Source of the DNA: Aspidiotus rigidus
Taxonomy: Eukaryota > Arthropoda > Insecta > Hemiptera > Diaspididae
Direction of reading: 5' to 3'
Length of the DNA stretch: 64,000 bases
NCBI GenBank assembly: GCA_035079385.1
Contig: JAVHKY010000059.1
Span: 1,600,001-1,664,000, forward strand
How positions within the stretch are numbered: position 1 is the first letter of the stretch; each line of letters opens with the position of its first letter. Both the position numbers and the translations under genes were made by a program. This document shows, in pieces, positions 5,838 to 63,335 of the stretch. Under the pieces are notes generated by a model. It was given only the letters and a program-made list of their open reading frames with translations, made no database searches and had not been told where the DNA came from.

Positions 5838-6009
5838 GAAAAATTAAAATGTGCGCTTCACGGTATAGAGCTTCATGGCACGACATCATAAGATGCCTTT
5901 TCAAAGACTACAGGGATGGAAGATCTTTTCTGAGGAACTGTGTAAAAGTATAAAATGATACAATATCAGTTTTCGATAAACTAAAAAAATTGTTATGACT
6001 TGAAGACAT

Positions 6010-7302
6010 CTTTCAAGTATTTGAAAATTATTGCAGCCAATATCGTCGCTATCGTCTATCATTCTCTCATTTTCTCCTCAAATTAACTTTACGTCACTTG
6101 TAGAAATTTCCATATTGAAAATTGCGGTGCAGCTAAAAGCGCAATCAAAGAATTTTCTGTTCTTGATCATTTCATAATTTGAACGTTTTCCAGTTATCTG
6201 TGTTGACCGTACCTCAATTAGTAAACATTTAGGCCTCTAGAAATTCTTACGTTCTCATTTGAGATATTTCTTGTCACTTTGCGACTCTCGCAATGGAAAA
6301 AAAAAATAAACAAAAGTTTTATTTCGACTTTCGATTAATTGATTTGGAATCTTTCGCGGATGTAGCTTACAGCACTTTGTTCCCTGTTTATAAACTTTCA
6401 ATTATACTTATTGATAGAATTGTAGATATGAAGTAAGGGCTACAAGAATAAAGATGCGTAAATTTCGAGAAAATTTACAAACAAATGAGGGATCATAATT
6501 TCTTGCTTCGTTATAAGAAGAGAGAATCAAATGGTTTGCAATTCAGTCTTTGAGTGTTGGTGATAGATTAACATCCAGTTTGTCTCATTTCAGATAACCA
6601 CAGGCGCAAGAAGATGACGATGAGTGTTGGATTTTGGTCTGAATCAATTTTTTCTTTTCTATTTCAAAAACTGAACCACTTATTCTGGTTCACTGATAAC
6701 TTACCTACGTATTTTTCTTCCTTTTCTTTCTTTATCTTTTTATCTAATTGGATCTTTAGGTCCCAAATTGAGTGACACGCTATCCTTAACTTATGTAGGT
6801 ATCAAAACATTTTCTTACATCACTCGGGTGACTACAGTACATTATTTGTTTGCATATAAGCCATTCTTTTTACTTTTTCTCGAACTCATTTGTACAAACG
6901 GTGCGAATAGTGTATGTGTATAGGTTTATTTTTCTACAGGCACTTTACTCATAACCATGTGCAAAGGTTTGTCCTTCCGTTCTCTGGTTACTAAATGTAG
7001 GTACATCGTGAAAGATGACTTCCTAATTATGAGATAAAGAAGAATTCAATATAGTCAACAATACTGAAATTAGTTGCTAAAATTTTCTTTTGCAGTAATT
7101 GCCTTCAATTTCCCACCTATGAAACTTTGAAAACTATATTATACTTTGAATAAAAACGTTGGCTACTGCACCTTAATTCAACCAATATCATTGACTTCAT
7201 ATACATTCACTCATAAATTTTATAAATATTCATTCTAAACATTATGAACTGGATCGTCGCTGGCATTTTCTGATATTATTTTTCTCATGTAGGAGGTTAA
7301 AG
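6010..7302. other. Upstream region or first intron of the Cys/Pro-rich gene, copy 1
   Basis: No in-frame start for the gene is present in the exon beginning near 7303, so at least one 5' exon should lie in or before this stretch. Possible acceptors (TTTTGCAG near 7096) and several ATGs exist, but I could not choose a first exon. Confidence 0.3.
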
Positions 7303-8027
7303 AAAAAACAAACTGTACGAGTGTGTCATCGTTCAAACTTGTCCTGTTGGTCACTTTGCTGAAACGTGTAGATGCGAATTTGACGCTGCGGATTTAGCGG
7401 TAAAAAAGAAGTGCTGTAAACTTTGTTGCCCACCACCACCACCTTGCTGTCCACCAAAACCACCTTGCTGCTGCCCTCCGATTATGCCACAAGGATGTTG
7501 TTGCGGTGCCCCACCGCCCACTTGCGGCCAACCAGCGCGTGCTCCGCCACCCCAGCAGAAGTGTGGTCCACCACCACCGCCAGCATGTAGCCCTCTGCCA
7601 GAACAATCCGCGCCTCCACCACAGCAATGTGGTATGCCGCCGCCACAACAATGTGGTGGAACTCCTATGATGATGCAGCAGCAAATGGGGGCAATGCAGA
7701 AGCCACCTTGCGTAAGTTACTTTTTATACTTGACAATTTTGCTCAAATTTCTCAGGTAATTATCACATGAATTTGTTGTTATTCCAGGGTGGAGGAGGCT
7801 GCTCTGAAGATCCTTATGCAGCTCTTAAAAACTGCGTTAAGCAATGTTTGTCTGAGAGATGCGACGTAGCAAACGCTTGCGGAGTCGAATGTCCATCTGA
7901 ATGCGGGTTTTATTGGACCAGCTACGGTGTATGTATTAGAGACCTCACTTCAGATTCAAGCGATGGGGAGCCGGTTAAGTTGCAACCCCCAAAAAAATAC
8001 AAAAAGAAGAAAAAGAAAGGTAGATAA
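7303..8027 (+). CDS. Cys/Pro-rich spliced gene, copy 1 (5' end not found)
   Basis: Two exons join in phase 0: 7303-7711, donor GTAAGT, intron 7712-7787, acceptor ATTCCAG, then 7788-8027 with the stop. The first visible exon must start after the in-frame TAA at 7298-7300, most simply at the AG of 7301-7302. That gives at least 215 residues, about 30 of them Cys. Order: a Cys-containing lead (ECV, QTC, ETCRC), a basic CC motif (KKKCCKLCC), a Pro/Cys core (PPPPPCC, PPCCCPP, QGCCCG), a Gln/Pro/Met stretch (PPPQQCG, MMMQQQ), a second Cys domain (NCVKQC, ERC, NAC, VEC, SEC) with an aromatic patch, and a Lys-rich tail. Composition recalls Cys-rich sperm structural or metal-binding proteins, but I cannot assign a family. 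The antisense frame is a shadow. Confidence 0.6.
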
Positions 8028-8477
8028 CTAAAATTGGGTTTCAAAATATTTCTATTCCTTAATACAGTCATGGTATCTTTTCTAGTGTTGAATAGCATAT
8101 ATCGACTTTAGTTCACACTGACATCTACAATGTAATAGAGAATATATCGAATTATAAAATTATAATTCATAAATAATTGTTTAGATATTTATGTTGTGTT
8201 TGAGTTTTCATTTATGATACAAAGTAAGAAAATTTCAATTTTCTTCTTGCTAGACAGAGATATTCTTATTGTTTGTCATTGACATGTAAAATTTGGATCA
8301 AACATCAATACATATATAAATCTAGGGTGGACCCGTTCAGCCTCCTTGTCGACGAAAATTAAAATATTATCTGCTTATGTTCACCGAATTTGTATCATTT
8401 TTTCAGAATATTAAAGAAAAGAAAAATGAAAGTTAAAAGAAGAGATCTTCTTTTATATCTTTCTTGCATACAACTAT
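8028..8477. other. 3' flank of the Cys/Pro-rich gene
   Basis: AT-rich sequence follows the stop codon. No canonical AATAAA is obvious in the first 150 bp, though ATAAATAATTG near 8170 could serve. Nothing else is recognised before the minus-strand exon candidate. Confidence 0.35.
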
Positions 8478-8714
8478 TCACACAAGATGTGGAGTCAAGC
8501 GTTCCTTGTTATTGACGTCTCCACCTAACTTGAGAAGTTGAAGAACTCCACTCCCTTCAAATCCTAAGTTAGTATATAATAGAGAGACAACGTAACACTC
8601 TTGAAATTTCTTTTCATATCCTATGATAAAATGGTACGGACACAACGGGAACATGGAGGCACATGGAGGCGTCTGGACAAAATTTCGAGGATAAATTCCA
8701 TCCCCCAACCCGGC
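8478..8714 (-). CDS. Possible minus-strand terminal exon, copy 1
   Basis: A good acceptor (TTTTTCATCTTTTCAG) ends at 8715 on the minus strand, and from there one frame stays open for 78 codons to a TGA at 8478. It begins AGLGDGIYPRNFVQTPPC and continues with FPLCPY, GYEKKFQE and LLKLGG. The same acceptor and most of the frame persist in copy 0 despite many substitutions, and copy 2 is identical. The 10-bp repeat CATGGAGGCA is doubled here but single in copy 0, which changes the frame, so at least one of the copies is broken or the region is not coding. The next minus-strand open stretch upstream (9069-8878, LNSVGDKEFKQLL) also differs from copy 0 by a frameshift. The product is unknown. Confidence 0.3.
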   Translation of the reverse strand, partial: AGLGDGIYPRNFVQTPPCASMFPLCPYHFIIGYEKKFQECYVVSLLYTNLGFEGSGVLQLLKLGGDVNNKERLTPHLV

Positions 8715-9525
8715 CTGAAAAGATGAAAAATATCAGAATTAACAAAATAAAAAGCAAAATAAGTAAACCAAGTCTAGCTCAGAAGATTTGATTTACATCG
8801 AAAGATTCAGCAACTGCCAAAATTAGATATTTTTGAAAACAGCTAGGTACTTGAAGAATAGTGTTCTTGAATTACGGCTAGAATTTTGAAGATAATATCG
8901 GTAATGAAATCAAGAATCTGATTTCAATTTTTATAAATGTTCTAGATTTCTCGATTTTTGGAACTCTCTTGCCTCTATTTTTTGAGTCCATTTTACCAGT
9001 AGAGCTCGAGGTAAGAAGCTGTTTGAATTCCTTGTCTCCTACAGAGTTTAGAGCTTCAAAGTTTGCCAAGTTTCACTACTTCTACCACAGTGCACATCCC
9101 TTTTTTATACTCGTACGTTTAGGGTTTTGAATTCTTGGCGCAAGCAAGAAAATTGTTCCCTACGCTTCAAACTCTTTCCTTGCCCTGATGGTGGCGGAAA
9201 CATTGACAATACACATTGAGGAGTACAAATTGAGCAATGTCTTATCTACACTTTTTCTTCTTTGTTTCCGGATGGATGAGTGACGAGGAACACGAAAGAT
9301 ATAAGTAATTTCTTATTCAGTCCATTTATATTCTACACCTCTAGTTCGGGAAATTGAATTAGATCTTCAGACCCGAATTGCTGTTCTGTGTCTATAATAA
9401 TTATGTGAGCATATTTTTCAAAAATTAAATATCGTCCGCCATAGCATGTTTATTTGCCATCTCGACTTCTACACTCAAGATAAATGAAGCACTATTATTT
9501 GATCTAAGATCTCTCCACTACTTCT

Positions 9526-9907
9526 ACTTCTATATTATAAGACACAAAACGTATATTTCGGCGCCGGTAATCTCCACTCCTACCGAATACTTTTCCCCGA
9601 AATTTTCCTGATACACATTTATTGTTCCAGAGAAGAAGAATAATTAAAAAAATTTTGGAAAAATGAAGTTTTAAAGCTGAAATTAAGCTTTTAAGTTAGG
9701 TCTATATTGGTTACTACTTCTACGGTGTATTCTTGATACAAAAATAAATTTTTCCTTTTATCGTGTTAATGGACGAAATATGTACGAAGTATTGACAAAT
9801 AACCATATATATGTATTCTCTTCCTTTTTGCCATGGAAAAATATTTTTATTTACATCTCGAAGGAATAATGATGAGATGACACTACTTTTACGCTACTCA
9901 ATTAATA
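9526..9907. other. Start of the 3.35-kb spacer unique to the copy 1/copy 2 interval
   Basis: Homology to copy 2 stops near 9525, and the sequence up to 12878 has no counterpart after 24584. This part is AT-rich and without a gene. Confidence 0.4.
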
Positions 9908-12878: not shown

Positions 12879-13036
12879 GAAAAATTAAAATGTGCGCTTC
12901 ACATTGTAGAGCTTCATGGCACGATATCATAAGATGCCTTTTCAAAGACTACAGGGATGGAAGATCTTTTCTGAGGAACTGTGTAAAAGTATAAAATGAT
13001 ACAATATCAGTTTTCGATAAACTAAAAAAATTGTTA

Positions 13037-13044
13037 TGACTTGA
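13037..13044. other. Left target-site duplication TGACTTGA
   Basis: The same eight bases follow the element at 21057-21064. Copy 1 has the single uninterrupted site at about 5996-6003, which proves the insertion point. Confidence 0.95.
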
Positions 13045-13372
13045 GTAGGGGGGATATGGTGGGGTTGGCACACAAAAAGTGTGGAGACGTCCCTGCCCCC
13101 TTATGGTAAACTCCCAATGAGGTCCATGCCCCCTCAGTGGATCTGTCCCCTCGATGAATTGTGTGCTACATTAATGAGGTGTCCACCCCTATGTGAATCT
13201 TTCCCATCGACATGTTTTGTATAAGAGCGATAGTTCATCAAAGACATATTGTAGCTCAACCACGACTATAAATTTATTTTATTTTTTATTGTTGCTCTGT
13301 TGAAGGCATAAACGTTTTCTCATGTATACTATATAACTAGTTATATTCACACCTTTCAAACTGAAAATTGAT

Positions 13373-14010
13373 GAGGTCTCTGCCCCCTTTGATATACCGG
13401 TATGTATGCTTTCTTATGAAAATCTCTTCGACAAAGTTGCTACCCCATTGATCGACCGTCTACTTCTTAATTAGGTCTCGGCCCCCTTCAATATATGTAT
13501 GCTTTCTCATGAAAATCTCGATGAAGTCGCTACCCCCATCGATCAAACAACTGCCTATATGATAAGGCCTCTGCCCCCTTCGACATACATGTGGGTTCTC
13601 ATAAAATTACTTTAATGAAATCGCTACCCTCCCAATCAAGCATTTACCTATTTGATGAGGTCTCTGCCCCCTTTGATGTATGTGTGAGTTTTCATGAAAA
13701 TCTCCCCAATGAAGTCGCTACCCCCCTCGATCAAGTACCTGCCGATTCGATGAGGTCTCTGCCCCCATTCAATAGATGTATGCTTTCTCATGAAAATCTC
13801 CTTGATGAAGTGACCACCCCCTCGATCATGCATCTACCTATTCGATGAGGTCTCTGCCCCCCATTCAATAGATGTATGCTTTCTCATGAAAATCTCCTGA
13901 ATGAACTCGCCACCCCCTCAAACAAGCGTCTATCTATTTGCCCCTCGATATATGCATGTTTTCTCATAAAAATCTCCTCAATGAAGTCGCTATCCCCTTC
14001 AATATTTGTA
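13373..14010. repeat. Minisatellite of about 95-bp period, left arm
   Basis: About seven units share GAGGTCTCTGCCCCC, TATGCTTTCTCATGAAAATC and GAAGTCGCTACCCCC. Unit starts near 13373, 13474, 13564, 13658, 13751 and 13847 give spacings of 90-101 bp. The open frames across it are by-products of the repeat. Confidence 0.85.
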
Positions 14011-14258
14011 TGCTTGCTTAGTATGTTAGTTTCTGGGAACCACACACCCTTTTAAAAATTTTTATGAAGTAGTTTCCTTGTTGGTATTTGATTCCCAGCT
14101 TAATTAGATTATCAATATAAGATTAAGGTATCAACACATCATATTTGTCGTTCCATCGTTAAAAAGAAGATGCCTGCAGGTGACTAGCGACGATCTTTGT
14201 CCTCGTGAAACGTATATTATGCTTATAGGGATGGCAAGTCGTGACTTGTTCCAATATC

Positions 14259-14286
14259 TTCTCTCTCTCTCTCTCTATCTCTCTCG
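14259..14286. repeat. (CT)n microsatellite, left arm
   Basis: A short, interrupted CT run (CTCTATCTCTCTCGC) corresponds to a longer pure GA run in the right arm, so the arms have diverged here by slippage. Confidence 0.9.
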
Positions 14287-15269
14287 CTTGTTCATGGTTA
14301 CGCGTGTCTCTGTCGCGTCTCTGTCGTACACCTTCATCGTATTTCTCGCCTACCTGATTGAAACCGCTGCTACCCCACGGTCACTCATTTTTGTATCATT
14401 TCTTGTGAAAAAAAAAAGGGTGTTGTTAGGTTGTACGTTCAGTGCGTCCTGTTTTTCGCGTGATAGACAGTTCATTGTCGCGGTTTTATATTTTTTCGTT
14501 TGTTTATGCAATTTGTATTTTGATAAAGTTTTTATTCCCGTATTATTTGATCGTATTTCAATTCAAGTAAGTAAATTATCTTTAACTTCACATTTGTTTC
14601 TTCAAGAGAAAAACTAAGCATAGAAACATCGAAATATTTTTGATCGACAAAGATTTGATCAAGTTGCCTTTTGAATAAGAACTTTTGTTGTAGGTAAATA
14701 TGGTAATCTAGTCATGAATAATATGAAATAATTTAATTCTAGTGTAAGTTATGTAGGATGTGGTCACCATTGTATCAGAAAATATATCACACCCACAATT
14801 AGGTAACCCTGAAATTTTAAATAATGTGGTCAAATGTAGGACTTTGAATAAATCGGAATTCAGCAAAAAATTGAGGCTCTGCTCGCACACAAATAAAATC
14901 CTAACTGTTGTAAATCAGGATTGATAGATAAAAATATTTCTTTGTAATGCAAAGAATTTGACAGTGATTAACATATAAAGATGGCAATTGTTCCATTTTT
15001 ACTCTTACACCCGCTCCTATTCCAGACTTTCCAAAAATAAAAGAGACTTCCATTTTGATTCAGTTTCATTGTATTTTAGTTCCTTCGAGTGATCACTTGT
15101 GCGCTTCTGTATCAAACTATAAACATTGATATTTTGTCATTGATTTTTAGCCACATATATTTTATATTTCATATACCTACCCTACATTCCATCTGCATAT
15201 ATTTCGCACAAGAAATGTTTTCTCTTTTACCCTCGTTGTCTTCCGCCAGTCGCAAGAGGCCAGCAAGTA

Positions 15270-16774
15270 GGGTGACTGCGCCAGTTTGCAACGCACCACC
15301 AGTTTGCATCATTTTGTAAAGATTCTTAAAAAATAAGAGGATGAGTAGCTGTGGAATAAAAGCAAAAAAAAAAAAAAAAAAATTCAATGTATCCGTTTTA
15401 ACGTGAACCTACCCTCACGGTATTATCTGTGGTTTTTGTTATCACTTCAACGTTTCAAAGTTGTTTCAAAGTTCAGTATGCCGTATCCCATGAAAAAATA
15501 ACTAGATACTTTCGGAAAGCTTGGTGAAGAAATGAGATTTTAGATGGATTATTTAACATTGGATTATATATTCCTTTGTCATAATGGTAAGTAAGGTATC
15601 CAACTTCAAATAAATAATAACGTTTGACCGAAAAAAGGAGAATAATTTTATTTTATTTGGATACGTTGCAAACATTCCATACAGAGCAGTACTTCACCAG
15701 TTTGCAACACTTCGTTGCAAACTGGTGATCAAGTGTGCTCCAGTTTGCAACGCACACATTTTATCACCTTATCACTGTTTTAGTCTATTAAGCTGATGGC
15801 TAGCTAAAAGTACCTAGGTATTCATTTCTTTTTTATAGGCTATATTCTACAGTTTTGTTGAGAAAATATTGACTTTTCTTATACATCATCAATGATTAAA
15901 TTAATGAAAAATTATTTTTTATTGGTTCATTACACGAGTGAAAAATTCCATTTAGGCTACTGACCACGGTACATTATAGAGGTATTGACACAACGAAAAA
16001 TTTCTGTCGCACGAATTGTGTTAATTCATAGGGAATTCCGCTACGCTCGCAGCGATCGTTTGAATACCTTCCACACCCCACCTGTGTCGGAACCTTACCG
16101 GAGGTACCCTAATATTGACGAAATTTTCGAGGGTTGTAAAAGGTGAAGAAATTCACCTAAGAAGATAATTTTTTTTTAAATAAGTAGAGCATGGTTAGTT
16201 GTCTATTCGTACCTAGTTTCAGATTTTTAGGTTAATACCTGATTCCTCTACAAATTTTTAAAAATTGATGAATTTACATTACCTAGTATTCATGTAGTTT
16301 TCACGCTTAGTAATACCTTGCAACGCTCCTAGCGTAGATTATATCAACTGACACAACTCAGGCGACAGTAACAAACACGGCTAATATACGTTCGTGTCAA
16401 TACCTCTATAATGTACCGTGCTACTGACTGATAAGAGGTATGACACTAACTGTTCACCTTCATGAAACGAACTGTTTTCGTACCCTAATTGGTGTTAAAG
16501 CATTGTTTGTAGAAAGCGTTGCAAACTGGTGTCAGGAGTGTTTCAAACTGGTGAACTTGCGTTGCAAACTGGTACATTTGCATTTTTTCGACTTATTTAC
16601 AAAATTTAGAACATTCAATGCATTAGAATGTTTTTCTTATCAATGTTTTTGAAAAATTACGTCATACAGATTCTAAATATGTATCGTTCATCACATTTGC
16701 ATGAATACCGAATTTCTGATGGGAAGTTGGAGTGGAAAATTCTCTTAACGCGTTGCAAACTGGCGCAGTCACCC
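15270..16774. mobile_element. 1505-bp TA-flanked non-autonomous element (Tc1/mariner-like)
   Basis: The ends are GGGTGACTGCGCCAGTTTGC and its reverse complement, and the perfect terminal repeat runs about 25 bp. TA is duplicated at 15268-15269 and 16775-16776, and the right arm keeps the empty site with one TA. A TA duplication is the mark of Tc1/mariner-type insertion. No transposase frame is present. The motif CCAGTTTGCAAC or its complement occurs about ten times: in both ends, in subterminal clusters (15280-15310, 15697-15760, 16517-16575) and in the target just outside. It contains the hAT-like MITE at 15965-16420. Confidence 0.85.
15965..16420. mobile_element. 456-bp hAT-like MITE nested in the TA-flanked element
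   Basis: A perfect 27-bp terminal inverted repeat begins CACGGTACATTATAGAGG. The 8-bp duplication CTACTGAC lies at 15957-15964 and 16421-16428. A CA start and an 8-bp duplication point to the hAT superfamily. The interior is non-coding. A second, diverged copy starts at 63019. Confidence 0.85.
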
Positions 16775-16875
16775 TAGATCTCCAGTTTGCAACAGACCCA
16801 AGTAAGCAAAGTAAAATAAAATAATGAGAGAAAACTTTTATAAAAATCTAATTAGGTCTATGTTCTTATAGAAAA

Positions 16876-18000
16876 ATGATGAAACTTGTTCACAATTTGA
16901 CTCAACTGGATCCATCAACATCTGATATATTGTACTCTCCACAAAAGCAACAAGCCGAAAATGAGGTTGTTTGGCAGAAAAAGATCATTGACATGGGCAA
17001 GAAAGGGTGAGTCTGATTTGAGAGCCTTATAATTCATTTATTATTATCAATATTACAAGTATTTTTTATTATTTACAGAAAAAAAGTTGTCAAATTCCAA
17101 ACACCATCTGCGTCACTAACTGCTTCATCTACCCATCCAAGCCTCAAACCTAAGGCGTTTCTTGATGATCCTTCCAAGGTCAATGCATTCTTATGTCGCA
17201 TGTGTAATACAGGCTATCGCAAAGGATATTATCATAATCACATACGATCTGAAAATCACAAGAAAGCCATAGTAATGTTAACTAATGCCAATCATCCTAA
17301 GAATGGTATAATAATTCATGAAACAAATTATGGAAAATGCATTGATATCATGTTTCCAAATTATGAAAAATATTCTGAGCTGTTAGAGAATTATAAGGCT
17401 AAGGTGAATGAAAGATCCTTCAATCAACACAACACTATCCCTAAAAAACCAACCATTGGCAGTGGGAAAAATTTGTCTGGCGACATATCTGCTATTTCAG
17501 ATTTCATCCAGTTTTATCAGTATGGCATCAACTTCCGTATAAATAAGGCTTTGCTAGATTTTGGGTGTATCAAAATTAACCTGAGTGTTAATCTTGTACT
17601 ATGTAAAATACTTCCTGATGGATCAGAACCAATGCTACAGAATCTCGGCTTGCGCTCTAAATGTCGGGAAGTTTATTCAACAACCAATTTAGACACACTT
17701 TTTGCAGACATCATTCGAGAGATTCAGACTAAATATGAAGAGAATAGCTTTATTGGCTCAAATTGGACTCTTTATAATTTTAAAAATATAGACCTACAAA
17801 TTAATGCATTTACACCCCTTTCAGCTTGTTCTCATATTAAATTACCCAAATCTATTGCCAACAAACACGCGGTCATTAATATTCAAAATAATGATAATAG
17901 GTGTTTTTTCTATTCAATTGCCTGTAAATTTCTCAATAATAATGTAAATAATAAGGATCGAGTTTCACATCAGGAAGTATTTTACATAGTACAAGATTAA
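16876..18000 (+). CDS. Truncated PolB-element protein (left arm plus centre)
   Basis: Exon 1 runs from the ATG at 16876 to 17006, the intron is 17007-17078 (GTGAGT to TTTACAG) and exon 2 is 17079-18000; the frame is kept across the split Gly codon. About 350 residues. A C2H2-type finger (CRMC, then YHNHIRSENHK) starts near residue 90. The part in the unpaired centre reads GSNWTLYNFKNIDLQI, LSACSHIKLPKSIANK and AVINIQNNDNRCFFYSI, ending NNKDRVSH. From memory, the IN(I/V)QN-D-x-CF-x-(W/Y)SI motif followed by RVS(H/K)Y belongs to proteins preceding or fused to protein-primed DNA polymerase B in Polinton/adintovirus-like elements of arthropods and cnidarians. The polymerase part is missing: after RVSH the frame runs into the opposite arm in antisense (about 12 residues) and stops. 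No exonuclease or polymerase motif is present. Confidence 0.65.
17621..17967 (+). other. Unpaired centre of the foldback element
   Basis: Pairing ends at CTTCCTGATG (17611-17620) on the left and resumes at CATCAGGAAG (17968-17977). The 347 bp between are the natural continuation of the left gene, so the right arm is the inverted duplicate of the 5' part and the centre records where the gene was cut. Confidence 0.85.
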
Positions 18001-18712
18001 CACTCAGGTTAATTTTGATACACCCAAAATCTAGCAAAGCCTTATTTATACGGAAGTTGATGCCATACTGATAAAACTGGATGAAATCTGAAATAGCAGA
18101 TATGTCGCCAGACAAATTTTTCCCACTGCCAATGGTTGGTTTTTTAGGGATAGTGTTGTGTTGATTGAAGGATCTTTCATTCACCTTAGCCTTATAATTC
18201 TCTAACAGCTCAGAATATTTTTCATAATTTGGAAACATGATATCAATGCATTTTCCATAATTTGTTTCATGAATTATTATACCATTCTTAGGATGATTGG
18301 CATTAGTTAACATTACTATGGCTTTCTTGTGATTTTCAGATCGTATGTGATTATGATAATATCCTTTGCGATAGCCTGTATTACACATGCGACATAAGAA
18401 TGCATTGACCTTGGAAGGATCATCAAGAAACGCCTTAGGTTTGAGGCTTGGATGGGTAGATGAAGCAGTTAGTGACGCAGATGGTGTTTGGAATTTGACA
18501 ACTTTTTTTCTGTAAATAATAAAAAATACTTGTAATATTGATAATAATAAATGAATTATAAGGCTCTCAAATCAGACTCACCCTTTCTTGCCCATGTCAA
18601 TGATCTTTTTCTGCCAAACAACCTCATTTTCGGCTTGTTGCTTTTGTGGAGAGTACAATATATCAGATGTTGATGGATCCAGTTGAGTCAAATTGTGAAC
18701 AAGTTTCATCAT
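17933..18712 (-). CDS. Truncated PolB-element protein (right arm)
   Basis: This is the mirror copy of the left-arm gene: exon 1 18712-18582, intron 18581-18510 and exon 2 from 18509 down to the stop at 17933. It encodes the same N-terminal region and C2H2 finger, but at the centre it switches after KILPD to VKLDPYYLHYY and stops, because it reads the centre in antisense. It therefore lacks the INIQNNDNRCF segment that the left copy keeps. The two genes converge and their 3' ends overlap at 17933-18000. Splice signals are intact. Whether a truncated protein is made, or only double-stranded RNA, cannot be judged from sequence. Confidence 0.6.
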
Positions 18713-19792
18713 TTTTCTATAAGAACATAGACCTAATTAGATTTTTATAAAAGTTTTCTCTCATTATTTTATTTTACTTTGCTTACTTGGGTCTGTTGCA
18801 AACTGGAGATCTACTTGCTGGCCTCTTGCGACTGGCGGAAGACAACAAGGGTAAAAGAGAAAACATTTCTTGTGCGAAATATATGCAGATGGAATGTAGG
18901 GTAGGTATATGAAATATAAAATATATGTGGCTAAAAATCAATGACAAAATATCAATGTTTATAGTTTGATACAGAAGCGCACAAGTGATCACTCGAAGGA
19001 ACTAAAATACAATGAAACTGAATCAAAATGGAAGTCTCTTTTATTTTTGGAAAGTCTGGAATAGGAGCGGGTGTAAGAGTAAAAATGGAACAATTGCCAT
19101 CTTTATATGTTAATCACTGTCAAATTCTTTGCATTACAAAGAAATATTTTTATCTATCAATCCTGATTTACAACAGTTAGGATTTTATTTGTGTGCGAGC
19201 AGAGCCTCAATTTTTTGCTGAATTCCGATTTATTCAAAGTCCTACATTTGACCACATTATTTAAAATTTCAGGGTTACCTAATTGTGGGTGTGATATATT
19301 TTCTGATACAATGGTGACCACATCCTACATAACTTACACTAGAATTAAATTATTTCATATTATTCATGACTAGATTACCATATTTACCTACAACAAAAGT
19401 TCTTATTCAAAAGGCAACTTGATCAAATCTTTGTCGATCAAAAATATTTCGATGTTTCTATGCTTAGTTTTTCTCTTGAAGAAACAAATGTGAAGTTAAA
19501 GATAATTTACTTACTTGAATTGAAATACGATCAAATAATACGGGAATAAAAACTTTATCAAAATACAAATTGCATAAACAAACGAAAAAATATAAAACCG
19601 CGACAATGAACTGTCTATCACGCGAAAAACAGGACGCACTGAACGTACAACCTAACAACACCCTTTTTTTTTTCACAAGAAATGATACAAAAATGAGTGA
19701 CCGTGGGGTAGCAGCGGTTTCAATCAGGTAGGCGAGAAATACGATGAAGGTGTACGACAGAGACGCGACAGAGACACGCGTAACCATGAACA

Positions 19793-19794
<2 letters not shown>
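18713..19794. other. Right-arm 5' flank of the convergent gene
   Basis: AT-rich sequence mirrors 14287-15269 and 16777-16875. It contains the empty site of the TA-flanked element (GATCTACTTGCTGG near 18810) with the motif GTTGCAAACTGG beside it. The frames present are mirror shadows. Confidence 0.6.

Positions 19795-19842
<48 letters not shown>
19795..19842. repeat. (GA)n microsatellite, right arm
   Basis: About 24 GA dinucleotides, longer and purer than the left-arm counterpart. Confidence 0.95.
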
Positions 19843-19845
<3 letters not shown>

Positions 19846-20090
19846 ATTGGAACAAGTCACGACTTGCCATCCCTATAAGCATAATATACGTTTCACGAGG
19901 ACAAAGATCGTCGCTAGTCACCTGCAGGCATCTTCTTTTTAACGATGGAACGACAAATATGATGTGTTGATACCTTAATCTTATATTGATAATCTAATTA
20001 AGCTGGGAATCAAATACCAACAAGGAAACTACTTCATAAAAATTTTTAAAAGGGTGTGTGGTTCCCAGAAACTAACATACTAAGCAAGCA

Positions 20091-20728
20091 TACAAATATT
20101 GAAGGGGATAGCGACTTCATTGAGGAGATTTTTATGAGAAAACATGCATATATCGAGGGGCAAATAGATAGACGCTTGTTTGAGGGGGTGGCGAGTTCAT
20201 TCAGGAGATTTTCATGAGAAAGCATACATCTATTGAATGGGGGGCAGAGACCTCATCGAATAGGTAGATGCATGATCGAGGGGGTGGTCACTTCATCAAG
20301 GAGATTTTCATGAGAAAGCATACATCTATTGAATGGGGGCAGAGACCTCATCGAATCGGCAGGTACTTGATCGAGGGGGGTAGCGACTTCATTGGGGAGA
20401 TTTTCATGAAAACTCACACATACATCAAAGGGGGCAGAGACCTCATCAAATAGGTAAATGCTTGATTGGGAGGGTAGCGATTTCATTAAAGTAATTTTAT
20501 GAGAACCCACATGTATGTCGAAGGGGGCAGAGGCCTTATCATATAGGCAGTTGTTTGATCGATGGGGGTAGCGACTTCATCGAGATTTTCATGAGAAAGC
20601 ATACATATATTGAAGGGGGCCGAGACCTAATTAAGAAGTAGACGGTCGATCAATGGGGTAGCAACTTTGTCGAGGAGATTTTCATAAGAAAGCATACATA
20701 CCGGTATATCAAAGGGGGCAGAGACCTC
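20091..20728. repeat. Minisatellite of about 95-bp period, right arm
   Basis: Mirror image of 13373-14010, unit for unit, including the CCCCCC variants, with no length change seen. Confidence 0.85.
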
Positions 20729-21056
20729 ATCAATTTTCAGTTTGAAAGGTGTGAATATAACTAGTTATATAGTATACATGAGAAAACGTTTATGCCTTCA
20801 ACAGAGCAACAATAAAAAATAAAATAAATTTATAGTCGTGGTTGAGCTACAATATGTCTTTGATGAACTATCGCTCTTATACAAAACATGTCGATGGGAA
20901 AGATTCACATAGGGGTGGACACCTCATTAATGTAGCACACAATTCATCGAGGGGACAGATCCACTGAGGGGGCATGGACCTCATTGGGAGTTTACCATAA
21001 GGGGGCAGGGACGTCTCCACACTTTTTGTGTGCCAACCCCACCATATCCCCCCTAC

Positions 21057-21064
21057 TGACTTGA
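21057..21064. other. Right target-site duplication TGACTTGA
   Basis: Direct repeat of 13037-13044 bordering the foldback element. Confidence 0.95.
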
Positions 21065-22363
21065 AGACATCTTTCAAGTATTTGAAAATTATTGCAGCCA
21101 ATATCGTCGCTATCGTCTATCATTCTCTCATTTTCTCCTCAAATTAACTTTACGTCACTTGTAGAAATTTCCATATTGAAAATTGCGGTGCAGCTAAAAG
21201 CGCAATCAAAGAATTTTCTGTTCTTGATCATTTCATAATTTGAACGTTTTCCAGTTATCTGTGTTGACCGTACCTCAATTAGTAAACATTTAGGCCTCTA
21301 GAAATTCTTACGTTCTCATTTGAGATATTTCTTGTCACTTTGCGACTCTCGCAATGGAAAAAAAAAATAAACAAAAGTTTTATTTCGACTTTCGATTAAT
21401 TGATTTGGAATCTTTCGCGGATGTAGCTTACAGCACTTTGTTCCCTGTTTATAAACTTTCAATTATACTTATTGATAGAATTGTAGATATGAAGTAAGGG
21501 CTACAAGAATAAAGATGCGTAAATTTCGAGAAAATTTACAAACAAATGAGGGATCATAATTTCTTGCTTCGTTATAAGAAGAGAGAATCAAATGGTTTGC
21601 AATTCAGTCTTTGAGTGTTGGTGATAGATTAACATCCAGTTTGTCTCATTTCAGATAACCACAGGCGCAAGAAGATGACGATGAGTGTTGGATTTTGGTC
21701 TGAATCAATTTTTTCTTTTCTATTTCAAAAACTGAACCACTTATTCTGGTTCACTGATAACTTACCTACGTATTTTTCTTCCTTTTCTTTCTTTATCTTT
21801 TTATCTAATTGGATCTTTAGGTCCCAAATTGAGTGACACGCTATCCTTAACTTATGTAGGTATCAAAACATTTTCTTACATCACTCGGGTGACTACAGTA
21901 CATTATTTGTTTGCATATAAGCCATTCTTTTTACTTTTTCTCGAACTCATTTGTACAAACGGTGCGAATAGTGTATGTGTATAGGTTTATTTTTCTACAG
22001 GCACTTTACTCATAACCATGTGCAAAGGTTTGTCCTTCCGTTCTCTGGTTACTAAATGTAGGTACATCGTGAAAGATGACTTCCTAATTATGAGATAAAG
22101 AAGAATTCAATATAGTCAACAATACTGAAATTAGTTGCTAAAATTTTCTTTTGCAGTAATTGCCTTCAATTTCCCACCTATGAAACTTTGAAAACTATAT
22201 TATACTTTGAATAAAAACGTTGGCTACTGCACCTTAATTCAACCAATATCATTGACTTCATATACATTCACTCATAAATTTTATAAATATTCATTCTAAA
22301 CATTATGAACTGGATCGTCGCTGGCATTTTCTGATATTATTTTTCTCATGTAGGAGGTTAAAG

Positions 22364-23088
22364 AAAAAACAAACTGTACGAGTGTGTCATCGTTCAAACT
22401 TGTCCTGTTGGTCACTTTGCTGAAACGTGTAGATGCGAATTTGACGCTGCGGATTTAGCGGTAAAAAAGAAGTGCTGTAAACTTTGTTGCCCACCACCAC
22501 CACCTTGCTGTCCACCAAAACCACCTTGCTGCTGCCCTCCGATTATGCCACAAGGATGTTGTTGCGGTGCCCCACCGCCCACTTGCGGCCAACCAGCGCG
22601 TGCTCCGCCACCCCAGCAGAAGTGTGGTCCACCACCACCGCCAGCATGTAGCCCTCTGCCAGAACAATCCGCGCCTCCACCACAGCAATGTGGTATGCCG
22701 CCGCCACAACAATGTGGTGGAACTCCTATGATGATGCAGCAGCAAATGGGGGCAATGCAGAAGCCACCTTGCGTAAGTTACTTTTTATACTTGACAATTT
22801 TGCTCAAATTTCTCAGGTAATTATCACATGAATTTGTTGTTATTCCAGGGTGGAGGAGGCTGCTCTGAAGATCCTTATGCAGCTCTTAAAAACTGCGTTA
22901 AGCAATGTTTGTCTGAGAGATGCGACGTAGCAAACGCTTGCGGAGTCGAATGTCCATCTGAATGCGGGTTTTATTGGACCAGCTACGGTGTATGTATTAG
23001 AGACCTCACTTCAGATTCAAGCGATGGGGAGCCGGTTAAGTTGCAACCCCCAAAAAAATACAAAAAGAAGAAAAAGAAAGGTAGATAA
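22364..23088 (+). CDS. Cys/Pro-rich spliced gene, copy 2 (5' end not found)
   Basis: The exons 22364-22772 and 22849-23088, with intron 22773-22848, reproduce copy 1 at an offset of 15061. I saw no difference in either exon or the intron, so the predicted proteins are identical. The foldback insertion lies about 1.3 kb upstream of the visible exon. If the first exon or promoter lies left of 13037 in this copy, transcription would have to cross 8 kb of palindrome, so this copy may be silenced or misexpressed while copy 1 remains intact. The family is unknown, as for copy 1. Confidence 0.6.
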
Positions 23089-23538
23089 CTAAAATTGGGT
23101 TTCAAAATATTTCTATTCCTTAATACAGTCATGGTATCTTTTCTAGTGTTGAATAGCATATATCGACTTTAGTTCACACTGACATCTACAATGTAATAGA
23201 GAATATATCGAATTATAAAATTATAATTCATAAATAATTGTTTAGATATTTATGTTGTGTTTGAGTTTTCATTTATGATACAAAGTAAGAAAATTTCAAT
23301 TTTCTTCTTGCTAGACAGAGATATTCTTATTGTTTGTCATTGACATGTAAAATTTGGATCAAACATCAATACATATATAAATCTAGGGTGGACCCGTTCA
23401 GCCTCCTTGTCGACGAAAATTAAAATATTATCTGCTTATGTTCACCGAATTTGTATCATTTTTTCAGAATATTAAAGAAAAGAAAAATGAAAGTTAAAAG
23501 AAGAGATCTTCTTTTATATCTTTCTTGCATACAACTAT

Positions 23539-23775
23539 TCACACAAGATGTGGAGTCAAGCGTTCCTTGTTATTGACGTCTCCACCTAACTTGAGAAGTT
23601 GAAGAACTCCACTCCCTTCAAATCCTAAGTTAGTATATAATAGAGAGACAACGTAACACTCTTGAAATTTCTTTTCATATCCTATGATAAAATGGTACGG
23701 ACACAACGGGAACATGGAGGCACATGGAGGCGTCTGGACAAAATTTCGAGGATAAATTCCATCCCCCAACCCGGC
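23539..23775 (-). CDS. Possible minus-strand terminal exon, copy 2
   Basis: Identical to the candidate at 8478-8714, with the same acceptor, the same 78 codons and the same doubled 10-bp CATGGAGGCA. Confidence 0.3.
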   Translation of the reverse strand, partial: AGLGDGIYPRNFVQTPPCASMFPLCPYHFIIGYEKKFQECYVVSLLYTNLGFEGSGVLQLLKLGGDVNNKERLTPHLV

Positions 23776-24584
23776 CTGAAAAGATGAAAAATATCAGAAT
23801 TAACAAAATAAAAAGCAAAATAAGTAAACCAAGTCTAGCTCAGAAGATTTGATTTACATCGAAAGATTCAGCAACTGCCAAAATTAGATATTTTTGAAAA
23901 CAGCTAGGTACTTGAAGAATAGTGTTCTTGAATTACGGCTAGAATTTTGAAGATAATATCGGTAATGAAATCAAGAATCTGATTTCAATTTTTATAAATG
24001 TTCTAGATTTCTCGATTTTTGGAACTCTCTTGCCTCTATTTTTTGAGTCCATTTTACCAGTAGAGCTCGAGGTAAGAAGCTGTTTGAATTCCTTGTCTCC
24101 TACAGAGTTTAGAGCTTCAAAGTTTGCCAAGTTTCACTACTTCTACCACAGTGCACATCCCTTTTTTATACTCGTACGTTTAGGGTTTTGAATTCTTGGC
24201 GCAAGCAAGAAAATTGTTCCCTACGCTTCAAACTCTTTCCTTGCCCTGATGGTGGCGGAAACATTGACAATACACATTGAGGAGTACAAATTGAGCAATA
24301 TCTTATCTACACTTTTTCTTCTTTGTTTCCGGATGGATGAGTGACGAGGAACACGAAAGATATAAGTAATTTCTTATTCAGTCCATTTATATTCTACACC
24401 TCTAGTTCGGGAAATTGAATTAGATCTTCAGACCCGAATTGCTGTTCTGTGTCTATAATAATTATGTGAGCATATTTTTCAAAAATTAAATATCGTCCGC
24501 CATAGCATGTTTATTTGCCATCTCGACTTCTACACTCAAGATAAATGAAGCACTATTATTTGATCTAAGATCTCTCCACTACTT

Positions 24585-25060
24585 CAACTTGTGTGCGTAT
24601 ACGGAGAATAAAAACTTCGAGTACACGTATATATATTTTATAGCCTACATCTGGCAAAATCGATATCGATGGGTAGGTATTTAATTTGGAAGTACACCTC
24701 GAAAAAGGTATGGTAAGATTTCTAACGCAGAATTCTACGCTCGATATGATCTTAATTTATATAATTAAAGCAAATTCGTACAATCTGAGAATAATCAACA
24801 CTTGAGTTTGTAAACGGGATCTTAGAAAGCGCATTTTGTGGAGGCGTGATGTGAAAAACACACGTCCGGGATCAAACAAAACAAGATGCTTTTTTCTGAT
24901 ACTAATTGATAGATTTTTGCTTGATGTATACCATCAGGTGCATGTTATTACACTTACTTAATGTGTGATTTTTGTGTAAGATTTGATGCATGTGTCTCGT
25001 GCTTACAGATGCCTCTAAATCGTGCCGTACGTCGTACGACGTCCGGCAGAAAACTTGGGG
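24585..25060. other. Flank of copy 2, no gene seen
   Basis: The first 40 bp match copy 0 near 1207-1235. Beyond that the sequence is unique and AT-rich, without an assignable frame. Confidence 0.4.
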
Positions 25061-45290: not shown

Positions 45291-46450
45291 AAAGTCAAAA
45301 TTGTTTCAAGTCTATATAGCTCGGAAGTCGAAATTTTTTCATGTGCCCCTCCTATCATATGCACTTCGGAAATCGCCACTTCAATATAGGAAACCTGATC
45401 TATGGGTTTCTTTTTTTAAAAAATTTGCCTCACGCCGGGCACCGTGTTATGTCCGGCCAAAAGGAAAAAACTCAAGGCTTCATTAACGGAGTTAAACAAG
45501 GGGTTTGCCGGGTAACTGTTTTATAGGGCACATTGGTGAAGTCACAGGCCCGGGCTTTGGAGCTAGATATAATAGAGGGGGAACTTGAAAAAATTGATTT
45601 ATAACGTCACAGGTCCGACCCTCAAGTTCTATCTGATAAAGGGGGGGCTTGGAAAAAAAACGAGAGGTGACAGGGAACCTGTTTTATGGGGCGTTTGGGA
45701 TCTGAAAAATGTATGAAGTCATTGGATTGTGACGTCACAATCCTGGCCTATGACGTCATCAAATTTTGACGTCGCAGGCTTGGACTTTCGAACTGCATAT
45801 GGTAGGAGAAGATTTCGACTTCCAAGCTGTATATGATAAGAGGTCGACTTCTAAACGACCTTGAGGTTGCCGGCCGGCTAAACGGCGGACGGGGGCAATT
45901 TTTTCCGAAATACCCCCTAATAAAACGGGTTCCTTGTTGAAAACTCATCTATGACGTCATCAGATTGTGACGTCACGAGGATACCTATGAAGTCTCAAAC
46001 CGTGACGTCACAGACCCTGTAACGTCATGATCTGCTGACGTCAAAATTGTGTAAGTTATACCTTGGCAAAAATGGTCCAATTCCCCCTCCGATCATATAG
46101 TTTGGAGGTGGAATTTGGAAAAATATCGACTTTTGACCCCGTGACGCCACGACCTGATAACGTCATGAGTCTGTGAAATTTTAACAGGGAACCTGCTATA
46201 TGTAGGTGATTATTTCGAAAAATTTGTCGTGCACCGTGTGATGTCCAACCAAAACAGAAATAGTCCAAATCCAACATTATAAGCAAAAATGGTTCAAGTC
46301 CTCCCTCCCATCACATATGGCTTGGATTGGACTTAGAAAAATTTCGACCTCCGAGCTACATATGATACGAGAGAGATTCGGAGAAATTTCGATCTCCGAG
46401 CTATATTTAATAGGAGAGGGACTTATAAAGAAATTTTGACTTTCGAGTCG
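45291..46450. repeat. Family A mosaic with TGACGTCA phrases
   Basis: Diverged satellite units, hairpin modules (CAGGGAACCTGTTTTATG near 45661, AAAACGGGTTCC near 45923, CAGGGAACCTGC near 46186) and many GTGACGTCA/TGACGTCAT phrases occur. Units face both ways. Confidence 0.7.
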
Positions 46451-46459
46451 TACTTGGCG

Positions 46460-46875
46460 ATGATACTTGTATCACTTTCAAAAATTACAACACTCTAGGC
46501 AAGAAATTATTCTCGCACATTAAGGATCCTACCCCTTTTGGAAAGAGATCCAACATGGTATACTCTATACCATGCTCGGAGTGCCCTCGGGTATATGTTG
46601 GAGAAACTCTTCAGCATTTATCGAAGAGAGTCTCCCAGCACAAAAGTGACGAGAAGAATCTTAATGATGAGACGACCTTAGTTAAACACGCCAAAAATAC
46701 TGGCCACCGATTTAATTTTAATTTAGATAATATTGCGATTTTAGCCACCGAAAATAACACTAAAAAAAGAAAGGTGATAGAAGTGATCGAAATAATAAAA
46801 TCAAACACAGTCAATTACAAACGAGATAGTGAAAATTTCAACTCTATGTACGCTTCTGTGATTCATGGACTGTAA
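46460..46875 (+). pseudogene. Penelope-like element C-terminal fragment with GIY-YIG endonuclease
   Basis: The frame is open from about 46460 without a start. It reads NTLGKKLFSHIKDP (the linker after the Penelope reverse transcriptase), then the GIY-YIG domain: VYSIPCSECPRVYVGET as the paired GIY/YIG strands, LSKRVSQHKSD with the catalytic-type Arg, VKHAKNTGHRFNF with the His motif, and KRKVIEVIEI with the Glu. It closes with Asn-rich NYKRDSENFNS and a TAA. The domain looks intact at the motif level, but the reverse transcriptase is missing, so this is a 5'-truncated copy. It is surrounded by family A satellites. Penelope GIY-YIG nucleases nick target DNA for reverse transcription. Confidence 0.8.
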
Positions 46876-61158: not shown

Positions 61159-61845
61159 CGGAAAAAATTAGAAGCCATTGCAGACGTTGCAATGGCAGCG
61201 GGGAACCCGCAATTCCTTAACTCGACCTCTCAGGTGGTGTGGAACTGAGTTGATAATCCTGTCATATAATTCAAATCGAAATTATCATTCTACATTCCCT
61301 CCTATCACATATAGCTCGAGAGTCGAAATTCTTCTAAGTCCCCCTTCTATCATATATAGCTCGGAAGTCACAATTCTTCCAAGTCCCCCTCCGATCATAT
61401 ATAGTTCGAGGCTCGAAATTCTTCTAAGACCCCCTCCCATCATATATAGCTCAAGACTCGAAATTCTTCTAAATCTTTCAAGTCCCCCTCCTATCATATA
61501 TAGCTCGAGTCTCAAAATTTTTCTAAGTTTTTGGTTGGACGGCGGACGGTAGCTCGAAAGTCAAAATTCTTCCAAGTCCCCCCCCCCCTATTATATATAG
61601 CTCGAGACTTGAAATTCTTCCAAGTCCCCCTCCTATCATATATAGCTCGAGCCTCGAAATTCTTCCAAGTCCCCCCCCCCCCTATTATATATGGCTCGAG
61701 ACTTGAAATTCTTCCAAGTCCCCCTTCTATCATATATAGCTCGAGACTCGAAATTCTTCCAAGTCCCGTAACCTAACCTAACCTGCGGACGCGGACGTTT
61801 TCTGAGGATGTAATCTCCTAACAAAATGGATAGCAGGTTCCCCGC
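61159..61845. repeat. Family C copy 3 containing a 45-bp satellite array
   Basis: It begins GAAAAAATTAGAAGCCATTG with the stem GCCATTGCA/TTGCAATGGC, then AGCGGGGAACCCGC (61198-61211). About ten units of 44-48 bp (CTATCATATATAGCTCGAGA, CGAAATTCTTCCAAG) fill 61300-61770. It ends CAAAATGGATAGCAGGTTCC plus CCGC near 61842. This copy shows family C ends bounding family A satellite units, so A and C belong to one system. Confidence 0.8.
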
Positions 61846-62985: not shown

Positions 62986-63018
62986 CAAGTATTTAGTCAC
63001 TTCGTAGTTTGTTTACGA

Positions 63019-63335
63019 CACGGTACACTAAAGAGGTATTGACACTATACAAAATTCTTGTCACACAAAATAATGTAGTTCATACATAATTCCGCTGCGT
63101 TCGCTGCGCCGTTGTGAATGCCTTCCGCTCCCCACTAGCGTTGTTACCTTACCGGAGGTACCCTAGTACTGACAAATTTCCAAGGGTTATAAAAATTCAA
63201 GAAATTTACACATGAGAATAATTTTTTTTGAAGTATGTAGAGCATAATGAGTAGTCTATTCGCACCATGTTTTAGATTTTTTGGTTGATTTCTGACTCTT
63301 CTACAATTTTTTTAAAAGTAGTGAATTTACATAAG
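63019..63335. mobile_element. Truncated second copy of the hAT-like MITE
   Basis: It starts CACGGTACACTAAAGAGG like 15965 and follows that element through ACCTTACCGGAGGTACCCTA and TTTTTTGAAGTATGTAGAGC to about 63335, after which similarity ends. The right terminal repeat is missing and divergence is clear. Confidence 0.8.

Follow-up and report, generated by a model that had tools for sequence, protein, structure and literature searches.

What is the approximately 8-kb palindrome that stands at a duplicated locus of the hemipteran Aspidiotus rigidus, and how could it have arisen? We addressed this question in a 64,000-nucleotide stretch of contig JAVHKY010000059.1 (assembly GCA_035079385.1, positions 1,600,001 to 1,664,000 of the forward strand), called the window below. 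The analysis makes it probable that the palindrome is a non-autonomous, snap-back derivative, comparable to a defective-interfering genome, of a Polinton/adintovirus-type element. Its structure, target site and gene are described first, and the possible origins are weighed thereafter.

Structure of the palindrome

Two arms of approximately 3.07 kb each surround a unique centre of 347 bp (Table 1). When the left arm (13045-15270 joined to 16775-17620) was aligned with the right arm (17968-21056), 3066 of 3092 columns were identical. The 26 remaining columns comprise 3 substitutions (one within a CT repeat), 20 columns of CT-repeat slippage, and 3 others that are an effect of the cut position at the TA duplication of a later insert. 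The two ends match each other exactly. An earlier note on this DNA had described a near-perfect foldback element with perfect ends, whose arms differ by slippage and rare single bases; all of this is confirmed, with the addition of a 1505-bp insert in the left arm. Only one novel junction exists in the palindrome, at 17967/17968, and no clear microhomology was found there. The window contains 12 instances of a short G-rich motif of the 96-bp subterminal repeat unit, every one inside the two arrays, and the core of this repeat had no match in IMG/VR.

Target site and age of the insertion

Duplications of 4 to 11 bp were checked by a script that shifted the ends symmetrically by up to 3 bp, and three readings were obtained (4, 6, and 8 bp), the 4-bp one with mismatched ends. 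In the 8-bp reading, TGACTTGA, present on both sides, is the duplication and the element is GTAGGG...CCCTAC (13045-21056), whereas in the 6-bp reading the duplication is GACTTG and the element AGTAGGG...CCCTACT (13044-21057), that is, AGTAGGGG...CCCCTACT. Both readings are symmetric, agree with the empty site, and are equally exact; in the empty target, GACTTG is preceded by T and followed by A, the same letters as the last and first base of the element. Among the symmetric shifts, no 7-bp duplication with symmetric ends was found, such as would mark Galileo/Foldback elements of the P superfamily.

As a general rule, Polintons/Mavericks have ends of the form 5'-AG...CT-3'. The AGTAGG...CCTACT ends of the 6-bp reading match (AGT)2 at 5 of 6 letters, and we estimate from the sequence that an AGT start would favour the Polinton reading approximately 16-fold over a chance 8-bp case, the gene left aside. 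In extracts from two reports, vertebrate Mavericks show 6-bp duplications with ends (AG)3/(CT)3 or (AGT)2/(ACT)2 (PMC8097293), and the retrovirus-like integrases of Polinton-like viruses typically yield 6 bp (PMC12220804). The earlier note had relied on an 8-bp duplication to separate the element from Polintons and to suggest a new lineage. The 8-bp match does exist and stays formally admissible, but the 6-bp reading fits equally well and gives AGT...ACT ends close to the Maverick rule, so that the proposed new lineage loses its main support. We therefore no longer take the 8-bp duplication as a lineage mark, and the element need not belong to a new 8-bp lineage.

The empty site that had been noticed in the duplicate locus was confirmed, 7 kb upstream of the palindrome. 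Segments 5838-6003 and 12879-13044 are 97.6% identical (4 mismatches in 166), and segments 5996-9529 and 21057-24590 are 99.94% identical (2 mismatches in 3534). Since the flanks are present again without the element, insertion most simply postdates their duplication; the insertion into this site looks real and fairly young. For 3 arm differences in approximately 3.07 kb and an insect rate of approximately 3e-9 mutations per site per generation, its age would be on the order of 10^5 generations, provided that the arms have not undergone mutual conversion. The flank duplication itself is a spaced tandem segmental duplication with 3.35 kb of other sequence in between. Its right edge falls in a repeat that recurs at 84-1236, and a Cys/Pro-rich open frame, possibly a host exon, was copied along with the flanks (7301-7756 and 22362-22817).

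The gene in the palindrome

Two predicted exons separated by a predicted GT-AG intron (17007-17078) encode an open product of 350 amino acids (aa). Exon 2 stays open from the left arm across the centre, and its final 10 residues, up to the stop, come from the right arm. This gene corresponds to the N-terminal portion of the protein-primed DNA polymerase B (PolB) itself, namely its terminal-protein (primer) domain and the start of a vOTU protease; it stops short of the predicted site of the protease His, and the polymerase domain is absent from the element. The earlier note had interpreted the product as a protein that accompanies PolB, and the profile of relatives and the structure model identify it instead as the polymerase's own N-terminal primer domain. 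The spliced gene seen in each arm was partly upheld: each arm holds just the 5' part, the whole primer domain is encoded by the left arm plus the centre only, and the splice is a prediction.

A profile built from five relatives, with the window left out, gave 82.7 bits for the window frame (1.3e-24 among 735 open reading frames (ORFs) of at least 40 aa), in a test that is not fully independent because the five were found via the window's own conserved block; the best of 1000 shuffled controls reached 12.2 bits (E 0.0048). The model of the primer domain, of low confidence for exon-2 residues below 130, resembles the little-finger fold reported for the terminal-protein domains of PolB (PMC11071308). 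In a viral fold search, the matches also included, at E of at most 2.2e-4, two densovirus/parvovirus 'structural' proteins and the polymerases of a densovirus and a MELD virus (the latter a PolB); none of these reached a TM-score of 0.45. The PDB structural matches included no OTU chain, which is uninformative since the modelled vOTU part is truncated and of low confidence. The gene fragment had no match in Pfam, PDB sequences, or the phage collection, and two weak PHROGs matches (E 0.12 and 0.17) were taken as chance.

Relatives in GTDB and IMG/VR contigs

Scanning GTDB contigs with a degenerate pattern of the conserved block gave five loci, three of which (L002, L003, and L006) encode relatives. 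L002 carries a 1234-aa PolB (PF03175, 1.5e-19) beside an adenovirus-IVa2-like ATPase. In L003, a double-jelly-roll capsid gene (1.2e-54) precedes a truncated frame, and this frame aligns to the N-terminal third of the L002 PolB; L006 has a 1280-aa frame. IMG/VR contributed L007 and L009. The L007 contig, 15 kb long, has 12 frames of at least 110 aa, one of them of 1314 aa, and shows 40% identity over 100 residues; L009, which has a 1299-aa frame, is 36% identical to L007 over 145 residues. L006, L007, and L009 align to the L002 PolB, including its polymerase part, with 30-36% identity across approximately 980 to 1130 residues; PF03175 was detected in L002 alone, whereas the frames of L006, L007, L009, and (truncated) L003 gave no match to it.

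The block R-[VI]-S is followed by K in L003 and L007 (also in L002, after a shorter match), R in L009, and N in L006. The window has H at this place. Since no relative does, the natural PolB frame probably diverges at or near 17967/17968, to judge from the aligned residues.

The L003 contig, with its capsid gene at 240-1556, is binned as a Balneolales metagenome-assembled genome and is probably a misbinned eukaryotic virus contig. Several candidates were rejected: L001, phage-like by eye, shows a resemblance of 27 residues and was judged a chance match; L004 and L005 were dropped for tblastn E-values of at best 0.27 and 0.004 and stops within the frames; and L012, the sole IMG/VR match to the 18-bp terminus pattern, was taken as chance. 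A first IMG/VR scan with the 296-aa fragment gave no match, and two pattern scans of the conserved block there returned, respectively, nothing and two stretches of already known contigs.

Other coding content and inserts

The element is overlapped by 26 stop-to-stop frames of at least 60 aa, the largest outside PolB being mirror copies of 169 and 130 aa. No Pfam match, such as to an integrase, was obtained for these two frames, the scan covering frames down to this size; the four largest element frames scanned likewise gave no Pfam match, such as to a hAT transposase, which a non-autonomous copy would lack. When ORFs of at least 100 aa from L002, L003, L006, and L007 were searched by tblastn for capsid and ATPase genes, the only match was 17668-17982. 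Missing capsid and ATPase genes are expected of a non-autonomous derivative, and such a derivative would borrow its integrase. Rfam had no match in the window.

The 1505-bp insert is absent from the right arm, which retains a single TA. The sequence CCAGTTTGCAAC occurs 9 times in the window, 7 times within this insert and once per native arm next to the insertion point (positions within 15281-16793, and 18795-18806). From these occurrences, the insert may have been drawn to the element or may have a binding site in common with it. A segment at 63014-63332 is approximately 78% similar to part of the nested 456-bp element and has a like CACGGTACA end. Elsewhere in the window, a frame at 46429-46872 encodes a GIY-YIG domain (2.2e-5), as in Penelope-like elements, and related 45-bp tandem repeats lie near both window ends (1887-2127 and 61297-61767).

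Table 1. Coordinates of the palindromic element, its target sites, gene, and inserts in the window.
Feature	Positions	Strand	Remarks
Whole palindromic element	13044..21057	.	ends 5'-AGTAGGGGGG...CCCCCCTACT-3'; 8-bp reading: 13045-21056
Left arm	13044..17620	+	broken by later insert
Unique centre, 347 bp	17621..17967	+	carries on left-arm reading frame
Right arm	17968..21057	-	without interruption
Left target duplication GACTTG	13038..13043	.	8-bp reading: TGACTTGA, 13037-13044
Right target duplication GACTTG	21058..21063	.	8-bp reading: 21057-21064
Empty target site GACTTG in duplicated locus	5997..6002	.	TGACTTGA at 5996-6003
Duplicated flank without element	5838..9529	+	twin: 12879-13043 plus 21058-24590
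Subterminal tandem repeat, left arm	13368..13940	+	96-bp unit, 6.0 copies
Subterminal tandem repeat, right arm	20161..20733	-	96-bp unit, 6.0 copies
Predicted exon 1, PolB N-terminal gene	16876..17006	+	from sequence; splicing predicted; without Pfam match
Predicted exon 2	17079..18000	+	stop 17998-18000
Terminal-protein (D1, little-finger-like) domain	17299..17814	+	exon-2 residues 74-245; sequence and model; PMC11071308
Predicted priming Ser (G-S-N-W)	17758..17760	+	exon-2 residue 227, between helix 2 and last strand; inferred
Predicted vOTU catalytic Cys (NDNRCFF)	17902..17904	+	residue 275; inferred; His would fall past the cut
Mirror copy of gene fragment in right arm	17933..18571	-	runs into centre, then stop
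Later insert in left arm, 1505 bp	15270..16774	.	inverted ends GGGTGACTGCGCC; TA duplication
Element nested in the 1505-bp insert, 456 bp	15965..16420	.	inverted ends CACGGTACATTATAGA; 8-bp duplication CTACTGAC

Origin of the palindrome

Derivation from a protein-primed PolB element of the Polinton/adintovirus type, without autonomy of its own, is supported by the primer-domain gene. The earlier note had further proposed a snap-back of a linear DNA intermediate, and this is upheld as the simplest origin: the single novel junction, which joins one end and 347 bp more of that end to its mirror, follows from one-step self-priming of an incomplete strand. Protein-primed strand displacement provides incompletely copied strands. 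In such replication, a strand begun at the 'left' end would halt approximately 3.4 kb in, and its free 3' end would fold back approximately 350 nt upstream and copy the strand back to its own 5' end. In the following round of priming, the hairpin would become a double-stranded palindrome whose two ends are identical and both competent for integration; a retrovirus-like integrase acting in trans could then insert it into GACTTG with a 6-bp duplication. The palindrome would then have remained in place and acquired two ordinary later insertions.

The main rival of this snap-back origin places the event in the chromosome, where a break in the right half of a full Polinton would have been repaired with the left end of that copy, or of a different one, as template; the repair would have replaced all sequence farther right and lengthened the inverted repeats. 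An extract of the Galileo report describes such extension of terminal inverted repeats (TIRs) in '2RT' copies (TIR1-F1-F1-TIR2) and mentions that Polintons, too, have been reported to expand their inverted repeats (PMC3573991). This scenario accounts equally well for the target duplication and the identical arms. However, the whole right half would have to vanish in one step with only 347 bp left, and no right-half remnant is recognisable from the four relatives; we regard it as a serious but unlikely explanation.

A different kind of element, an 8-bp cut-and-paste transposon (hAT or P/Galileo-like, with long TIRs and internal tandem repeats) that had picked up a piece of PolB, appears improbable. 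The literal 8-bp reading speaks for it, and so do the 8-bp-duplicating 456-bp element nested nearby and the long, repeat-rich TIRs, as in Galileo, but the Polinton reading accounts at once for how the ends begin, for the duplication length, and for the gene content. In the extract of PMC3573991, Galileo and Foldback elements share with the palindrome long inverted repeats with internal tandem repeats and little in between; unlike it, they belong to the P superfamily, make 7-bp duplications, have TIRs of at most approximately 1.26 kb, and encode a transposase rather than PolB. Two head-to-head insertions could in principle make a palindrome, but they would need a central deletion besides, and with one duplication enclosing the whole and a simple empty site this is very improbable. 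Equally improbable is a false palindrome or false duplication of sequencing or assembly: hairpin reads and haplotype duplications are known in assemblies and the flanking twin is 99.94% identical, yet the right flank carries on the empty site rather than mirroring the left flank, and the insert, substitutions, and repeat length are specific to one arm.

Comparison with known systems and significance

The element shares with Polintons/Mavericks and adintoviruses the PolB primer domain, the vOTU start, inverted repeats, and, in one of the two readings, AGT...ACT ends with a 6-bp duplication. Unlike them, the element is 8 kb long, has two copies of one end, lacks the polymerase part, and contains no recognised integrase, capsid, or ATPase genes. 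The Kluyveromyces protein-primed linear plasmid reportedly gave rise to a hairpin/palindromic derivative of one end (Kikuchi 1985), cytoplasmic rather than integrated. A documented parallel is provided by adeno-associated virus, for which an extract of PMC8235507 describes genomes in which one end, with a promoter and a partial replication gene, is present in snapback form; these are parvovirus genomes described from particles, not chromosomal insertions. A full-text search of open-licence PMC papers, confined to six exact phrases, found no paper on non-autonomous, defective, or palindromic Polintons/Mavericks, and no title among the matches listed in a full-text literature search named a palindromic Polinton. 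To our knowledge, Polinton replication in animals has been inferred from genes and not observed.

If transcribed from one arm through the centre into the other, the element could possibly yield a long hairpin RNA against PolB. It seems doubtful that the palindrome is a self-propagating satellite using the proteins of a full Polinton, which would replicate and integrate repeatedly, provide its own primer domain (free-standing and whole in the left-arm-plus-centre frame), compete with its parent in the manner of a defective-interfering genome, and contribute hairpin RNA to the silencing of that parent by the host.

The palindrome is real, well preserved, and unusual as a derivative of an already known type of element, and it makes a good candidate for a fossil of Polinton replication kept in the chromosome. 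If it is a snap-back product with intact ends, it would preserve in the chromosome the trace of a linear intermediate of strand displacement and would mean that defective Polinton genomes are able to integrate. It would also allow a test of whether such palindromes parasitise the parent element or trigger its silencing.

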